Positions 37,932 to 40,018 of a DNA stretch of 64,000 nucleotides are shown in pieces. Position numbers and translations under genes: made by a program. The DNA comes from Heterobasidion occidentale. Its lineage: Eukaryota > Basidiomycota > Agaricomycetes > Russulales > Bondarzewiaceae. The notes beneath the pieces were generated by a model. That model made no database searches. It saw only the letters and a program-made list of their open reading frames with translations, and was not told the origin of the DNA. The DNA lies in assembly GCA_039111635.1 (NCBI GenBank), contig JBCAQO010000001.1:868001-932000 (forward strand), given 5' to 3'. Each line of letters starts with the position of its first letter. Position 1 is the first letter of the stretch.

Positions 37932-40018
37932 ATGGCCTCGACACTCCTTCGCCGCCAGCTGGCGCGCATTTCACATTTGGCTCCACGACGCTGTATTTCG
38001 ACATCTTCCTCTCTGCACCAGCAAATTGAGTCTAGGGGAGCATACACACAAGAGGGCAAACATGTTTTCGACACGCACACTGTAGAGGATTTACACGGGA
38101 TGGCTGCGAAGGATATTCTTGCAGAGACTGGCTCGAGAAAAGAGAGCCAAATGAGGCATTTCACAGGTAAGTTCTATCTTCCTCAGAGGTATTGATACTC
38201 ATCCCTCCTATCTCAGTCAATTTCGGGTAAGTACAGAAAATGACATATAATGTCTAATTTTGCGAAATATCTGTCACCACACAGTCCTCAGCACCCCGCC
38301 GCACACGGTGTGCTCCGGCTAATTCTTGAACTCAATGGAGAGGAGATTCTCCGTGCCGACCCCGTAAGACACTTAGCATTCACTGGCCATTTCTTCTTTA
38401 TAACACAATTTCCTGCTAGCATATTGGACTCCTGCACAGAGGAACTGAGAAGTTGATTGAATACAAGACATACATGCAAGCTTTGCCTTACTTTGACCGT
38501 CTGGATTACGTGTCTATGAGTAGGTCCTACACTCTTCCGTGTACCTTCCAGTATTGATGTTGCGATGTAGTGACGAACGAGCTGTGCTACTCGCTGGCTG
38601 TCGAAAAGTTACTCAACATCGAGGTACCTGAGCGTGCCAAATGGGTTCGCACTCTATTTGGCGAGATCACTCGTATCCTCAATCGTATGTTTCCCAGACT
38701 TAGACATGTGGAGCTAACGTTCATGGATACCTTCACCATAGACTTGATGGCCGTGCTCACACATGCTATGGATGTCGGTGCCTTGACGCCTTTCCTGTGG
38801 GGTTTCGAAGAGCGCGAAAAGCTCATGGAGTTCTATGAGCGCGTCTCCGGCGCGCGTCTGCACGCTGCGTACGTGCGCCCAGGCGGTGTCGCCTTCGACC
38901 TCCCCCACGGTCTCCTCAACGATATCTTCCAATGGGCGACGCAGTTCAGCAGTCGCGTCGACGAGATCGAAGAAGTTATTACTGGTAACCGTATTTGGAA
39001 ACAGAGGACGATCGGGGTAGGGAAAGTCACCGCTCAGGAGGCCCTTGATTATAGTTTCTCGGGAGTCATGCTCCGAGGGAGTGGAGTAAAGTGGGATCTA
39101 AGGAAAGTCGCGCCATACGATAAGTATGACGAGGTGCGTCTGCGATTCTTTTCACCAATACATGGTGTCCAACTCAAGCATGTGATGATGTATAGGTCGA
39201 GTTCGATATCCCTGTCGGGAAAAATGGTGATTGCTATGACCGTTACCTTTGTCGTGTTCAGGAAATGCGTGAGTCGCTACGGATCATCGACCAGGTGAGA
39301 GAGGTTAACTCTCGCCTCTTGATTGACACCCTCACCACTCGCATCCTATTTTATCAGTGCTTGAACAAAATCACCACTGGCCCTATCAAGGTTGATGACC
39401 ATAAATTGGTCCCACCTCCTCGTGCATCGATGAAGGAGAGCATGGAGTCTCTCATCCACCATTTCAAGGTAAGATTCGTTCTTTGTCTCTAACCTGCCTT
39501 ATTTCCATTTTTTGATACTCACACGGGATGTGAAATACAGATCTTCAGCGAAGGATACTCTGTCCCACCGGGTGAAACGTACTCTGCTATTGAGGCGCCC
39601 AAGGGGGAGATGGGTGTTTACCTTGTCTCGTGCGTGTGCTTTCCTCCAGATTCAGTAAGCGCTGGTCTTACAGTTTCTACTTGAATAGGGACGGCACCAA
39701 CCGCCCATATCGATGCAAGATCCGCGCACCTGGCTTCGCGCATCTGGCTGGAGCTGACTTCATGATGAGACGTGAGTCGTGTATGCTTTTCTGACTGTTC
39801 AACAAAATTCCTAATTTTAAATCTCTCTGCAGATGTGAGAGCATTTGCAATATGTGATAATCATCTGGCAGCTGACCCTTGTTCACTGCCCTGTAGCACT
39901 TTATTGCAGATGTCGTCGCCATCATCGGCACGATGGATCTTGTGTTTGGGTGCGTACAGTCTGTGCCGTTTCTCTTCCTCCCATATGCTGATTTTACGGT
40001 AGCGAGGTGGATCGGTAA
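37932..40018 (+). CDS. nuo-49: NADH:ubiquinone oxidoreductase 49 kDa subunit (NDUFS2)
   Basis: Thirteen exons sum to exactly 461 codons: 37932-38166, 38217-38226 (10 nt), 38285-38363, 38420-38519, 38571-38684, 38742-39133, 39196-39294, 39358-39468, 39541-39629, 39689-39771, 39833-39834 (2 nt), 39897-39949 and 40003-40018. The N-terminus [20 protein letters not shown] is a mitochondrial presequence. Family signatures include [78 protein letters not shown], and the ending [23 protein letters not shown]. The subunit forms part of the quinone site of complex I. The conserved HHF can only be read if a 2-nt exon (AT) is spliced between the 83-nt and 53-nt exons. Confidence 0.96.

Follow-up and report, generated by a model that had tools for sequence, protein, structure and literature searches.

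Very short internal exons are known from several systems, including the 9-nt exon of potato invertase, the 6-nt exon of chicken cTNT and the neural microexons of animals. The exon described here belongs beside them, but all of these are longer than its 2 nt. Recursive splicing works through ratchet points, which retain no bases and serve very long introns, and stwintrons have been described in fungi. Fungal introns of about 60 nt are not usually spliced by exon definition. In APC11 of Arabidopsis, an exon of sub-codon length, 1 nt, has already been demonstrated in Arabidopsis and rice by means of GFP fusion constructs (Guo and Liu 2015, PMC4674806). The authors regard intron definition plus stepwise intron removal as plausible for APC11, and the downstream intron of the potato invertase microexon is said to leave first (PMC4674806).

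The 49 kDa subunit gene of mitochondrial complex I in Heterobasidion occidentale contains a candidate exon of just two bases, AT. Like the APC11 exon (PMC4674806), it is sub-codon, putatively constitutive, located in a conserved gene and too short for exon definition; the APC11 case is a plant exon of 1 nt established by experiment, whereas ours is a fungal exon of 2 nt known from sequence alone. With a ratchet point it would share stepwise removal and a donor directly behind the first acceptor, but here the order AG-AT-GT keeps two coding bases instead of none, and the introns measure about 60 nt. With stwintrons it shares the fungal host, two virtually adjacent introns and, presumably, ordered excision; unlike in stwintrons, no nested GT-AG arrangement restores the frame.

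The window, that is, the whole 64,000-nt stretch of DNA that was analysed, lies on contig C1 of a 45 Mb genome in 159 contigs and has a G+C content of 54.6%. Its features are listed in Table 1. The protein of the 13-exon model aligned with its best PDB relative, 7zm7_C, over 390 residues with 0 gaps (E = 1.3e-215); this alignment reaches the conserved C-terminal block and ends in ...FGEVDR, which identifies the protein as NDUFS2, the complex I 49 kDa subunit. A PF00346 profile search of the genome gave five matches among the best candidates scored, all of them at the NDUFS2 locus, so no second gene copy or haplotype is available for comparison. The gene has a second microexon, exon 2, which lies between introns of 50 and 58 nt; the block VNFGPQHP, which contains its residues, is gapless against the PDB relatives.

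Table 1 Features of the NDUFS2/NUO-49 gene around the two-base exon (positions within the window)
Feature	Position	Strand	Description
NDUFS2/NUO-49 gene (mitochondrial complex I 49 kDa subunit)	37932..40018	+	13 coding exons, CDS 1383 nt
Exon 2, microexon	38217..38226	+	10 nt, TCAATTTCGG, completes V-N-F-G
Exon 10	39689..39771	+	ends in codon phase 1 (AGA C)
Intron A	39772..39832	+	61 nt, GTGAGT...CTCTCTGCAG
TGCAGATGT, 9-nt direct repeat, copy 1	39828..39836	+	acceptor A + AT + GT; copy 2 at 39905-39913
Exon 11, candidate 2-nt exon AT	39833..39834	+	completes split codon C-AT (His)
Intron B	39835..39896	+	62 nt, GTGAGA...CCCTGTAG, weak acceptor
Intron B segment GCATTTGCAATA	39841..39852	+	directly after donor B; predicted to pair with either repeat copy
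Exon 12	39897..39949	+	starts CAC TTT ATT GCA; 17 protein letters, then GG
Rival in-frame acceptor TGCAG	39905..39909	+	from donor 39772: R-H-V-V, HFIAD lost
Exon 13, final coding exon	40003..40018	+	16 nt, contains the stop

A sequence-only reading of this stretch had placed the end of exon 10 at ATG ATG AGA C, directly before GTGAGT, and the start of exon 12 at 39897, and had declared these two exons impossible to join directly in frame. Both statements hold: leaving out AT (junction ...GAGAC-CACTTT...) causes a frameshift and gives a 469-residue product without the conserved C-terminus. The proposed acceptor, AT and GTGAGA are indeed found between the two exons, with CTCTCTGCAG at 39823-39832 and GTGAGA at 39835-39840; the acceptor motif begins at 39823, and not at 39831 as originally given. 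Similarly, the 13 exons do add up to 461 codons, but this figure includes the stop, and the protein has 460 residues. The suggestion of 39916 as an alternative acceptor failed, as no AG precedes that position; the acceptor that does compete in frame ends at 39909, and its exon would start at 39910. The arrangement in the sequence is thus confirmed as first described, small corrections aside. Exon 11 lies between complete GT-AG introns, each with a branch motif of the form CTRAY (CTAAT at 39811, with its A 18 nt before the intron end, or CTGAC at 39791 in intron A; CTGAC at 39872, with its A 21 nt before the end, in intron B), and its sub-codon length would place it among ultra-short microexons. 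The spliced junction would read ...ATGAGAC-AT-CACTTTATT....

We enumerated the possible splice parses of the region, using donors at 39720-39894, AG acceptors starting up to 39929 and introns of at least 40 nt. GT-AG introns gave 33 one-intron and 36 two-intron parses, and 94 and 463, respectively, when GC donors were admitted too. Both flanking blocks, ADFMMR and IADVV, are retained in 15 of the GT/GC-AG parses. Among the one- and two-intron parses, the 2-nt exon is the sole one with the length of the family (45 residues in the segment), and the other 14 add 1-7 residues. Two of these 14 use GT donors only: one keeps the AT exon with a later intron A donor (39781, GTATGC) and has 3 extra residues, and the other places an exon of 14 nt after a GAG acceptor and has 4 extra residues.

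The conserved protein supports the two-base exon reading of the gene. All five PDB alignments displayed for the full model are gapless over the junction of exons 10-12, and when a 42-residue C-terminal query was used, all 46 matched PDB chains showed query and chain spans of equal length across the junction. In the five alignments displayed for this shorter query, from chains which we take to be of plant origin, KHHMLADVV stands opposite RHHFIADVV of the H. occidentale gene, so that the His of the split codon is found there as well (KHH). For prokaryotic NuoD we aligned the best 80 of 532 relatives; the junction is gapless at all 80 loci, and within HFIAD the A and the D are each invariant (80/80) and 78 of 80 have the H. 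One point against the reading is the split codon, where 76 of these 80 sequences carry Gly and one carries His. The expectation that inclusion of AT restores the NDUFS2 ending was borne out by the displayed PDB alignments and by NuoD alike. A scan of a collection of viral contigs found no relative.

To assess the introns, we compared them with 31 reference introns, comprising the 10 other NDUFS2 introns and 21 homology-anchored introns of chaperonin-family genes. The latter came from 40 of 48 chaperonin matches (six C33 matches duplicating C14 were dropped, as were C1:1096953 and C9:1989816): the 26 neighbouring match pairs tested gave 26 candidates, of which 21 passed a score of 4 and 5 fell below it, and two pairs with a gap above 300 nt were left out. 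Two further pairs, on C4 and C9 and outside the 31, have introns of 59 and 58 nt. One or two reference introns may be wrong picks, for example those with an AAAAG or a GGAG acceptor. Unsupervised intron calls from a coding model built on long open reading frames yielded introns without consensus signals and were dropped. During this work we noticed that the chaperonin gene on L032 (C33:27436-31077) and that on L033 (C14:491300-494941) have near-identical match scores; one of the two contigs is only 53 kb long, and the pair may reflect either a haplotype that was left uncollapsed or a recent duplication. Around C14:492743-492800 in L033, a chaperonin intron lacks a consensus donor where one is expected, the best GT candidate being GTCTTA.

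The reference introns are 49-83 nt long (median 56), a range that includes introns A and B; a fused intron running over AT would measure 125 or 138 nt. In the reference set, donor A ranks at percentile 90, acceptor A at 68, donor B at 26, acceptor B at 3 and the rival acceptor at 29; these percentiles lean on the consensus because the intron score uses it. The signals of intron B count against the exon: its donor is of ordinary to low strength, and its acceptor (3.56) ranks at the bottom of the reference set and is outscored by the rival acceptor (5.33). The acceptor-NN-donor arrangement is rare. Both signals are at least this strong at 2 of 528,000 strand positions, this site included. The other such site in the 264 kb examined, L008:2085-2086 on the minus strand, follows a GT/T-rich repeat; its upstream reading frame is not convincing, and we took it as chance. 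In dinucleotide shuffles of the 125-nt interval, a 2-nt exon sandwiched between signals this strong arose in 2 of 20,000, any such exon of up to 20 nt with a length of 2 modulo 3 in 28 of 20,000, and one of the latter with branch motifs on both sides in 2 of 20,000. Introns A and B are no more similar than expected by chance (44% of 2,000 shuffles were as good), and hence there is no sign that one was copied from the other.

We consider it very probable that AT is a genuine constitutive 2-nt exon, intron-defined and with its flanking introns removed in sequence. Each intron of about 60 nt would be recognised as a unit, and it is through this intron definition that AT would be included. Since acceptor A and donor B are 2 nt apart and could hardly be occupied at the same time, the introns would leave one after the other. 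Intron A probably leaves first, because its donor and acceptor are stronger, after which exon 10 would simply end in AT like any other exon (...AGACAT followed by GTGAGA); once intron B had gone too, the mRNA would encode the 49 kDa subunit at full length. The downstream intron goes first in potato invertase, so this order is an expectation only. The sequence itself shows the frame, the protein length, the splice and branch signals and the intron lengths; that AT enters the mRNA, that its use is constitutive and which intron leaves first are what we infer. The sequence-only reading had named exon definition as the limit and had put forward a 2-nt exon and recursive splicing as alternatives; the exon is supported by the parses, but the two ideas are better combined, with the exon probably spliced through sequential intron removal.

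The one simple competitor, a single 138-nt intron (39772-39909), would join C to ATGTC (...GAGAC-ATGTCGTC...) and make the AT exon illusory, or the form without HFIAD the main isoform. It keeps the frame, contains no stop and uses an acceptor, TTATTGCAG, that outscores acceptor B. We nevertheless hold it to be very unlikely: it removes five residues from a segment that is gapless in all 80 NuoD sequences and shows no net length change in the 46 PDB chains, it would be longer than each of the 31 other introns (maximum 83), its acceptor is predicted to be paired in the RNA, and it leaves a strong internal acceptor/donor pair unexplained. Slightly less probable is an assembly error in which an exonic indel makes an ordinary single intron seem out of frame. 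The gene is found at one place in a single assembly with no second haplotype, which leaves room for such an error; against it, the loss of two bases would have to coincide exactly with the splice junction, the fused intron would be 125 nt long, and the internal acceptor/donor pair with its branch motifs would be due to chance (2 of 20,000 shuffles). A stwintron, with an inner intron interrupting a splice site of an outer one and no exon between, has hardly any probability despite the two introns standing nearly back to back, as stwintrons retain no exonic bases between their parts while two must be retained here, and a search through 121 nested GT-AG parses, with introns no shorter than 35 nt, turned up none that kept the frame and restored both flanking blocks.

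The rival acceptor closely resembles acceptor A, each of them lying in one copy of the 9-nt direct repeat. Simple shuffles produced a shared word of at least 9 nt 35 times in 5,000, and shuffles that held the splice core fixed did so 78 times in 5,000. The segment directly after donor B is predicted to pair with either copy. With 39902-39913 it would form 12 uninterrupted base pairs, two of them G-U, covering the rival acceptor; its first nine bases (39841-39849) would form with 39828-39836 a 9-bp hairpin with a GAGA loop (-11.0 kcal/mol alone), which spans acceptor A, AT and the GT of donor B and excludes the 12-bp helix. A duplex energy as low as that observed was reached in 2 of 5,000 shuffles and a helix of at least 12 bp in 48 of 5,000; among the 12 introns of the gene the value is -23.7 vs a next lowest of -20.5. 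Stems of at least 9 bp with a loop of 3-8 nt are present at 11 of 1,995 AGNNGT sites. Of the two ensembles, the one containing the 12-bp helix comes out 2.7 kcal/mol more favourable than the one containing the hairpin, so the favoured predicted fold hides the decoy acceptor, and the alternative hides the microexon. Predicted unpaired probabilities are at most 0.01 for the rival acceptor, 0.74-0.94 for acceptor B and 0.30-0.66 for acceptor A. The same prediction also buries sites that are used in the two-base exon reading (donor A 0.01, the branch-point A of intron B 0.04, much of donor B 0.04-0.32), and predicted pairing alone therefore does not separate used from unused sites. Taken as a whole, the region folds with unremarkable stability (z = -0.88, with 35 of 200 shuffles doing as well).

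These pairings suggest an RNA switch, in which pairing with copy 2 would permit inclusion of AT and pairing with copy 1 would give a subunit without HFIAD. We think this unlikely and offer it as a hypothesis only, the pattern having been noticed post hoc, from one sequence and with no covariation; if it were true, the fold could tune active versus inactive complex I. A local template-switch duplication may moreover have given rise to the tiny exon and left the repeat triplet as its scar.

If confirmed, the AT exon, two bases long and part of a core respiratory gene, would extend sub-codon exons from a plant to a fungus, for which we claim no priority, and it would provide a clean test of any lower limit to exon size under intron definition. 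The locus is a compact natural substrate for studying intron order and how an in-frame decoy acceptor close by is avoided. Such genes would probably be truncated, put out of frame or stripped of HFIAD by standard annotation, and odd C-termini of fungal NDUFS2 proteins may thus be annotation errors.
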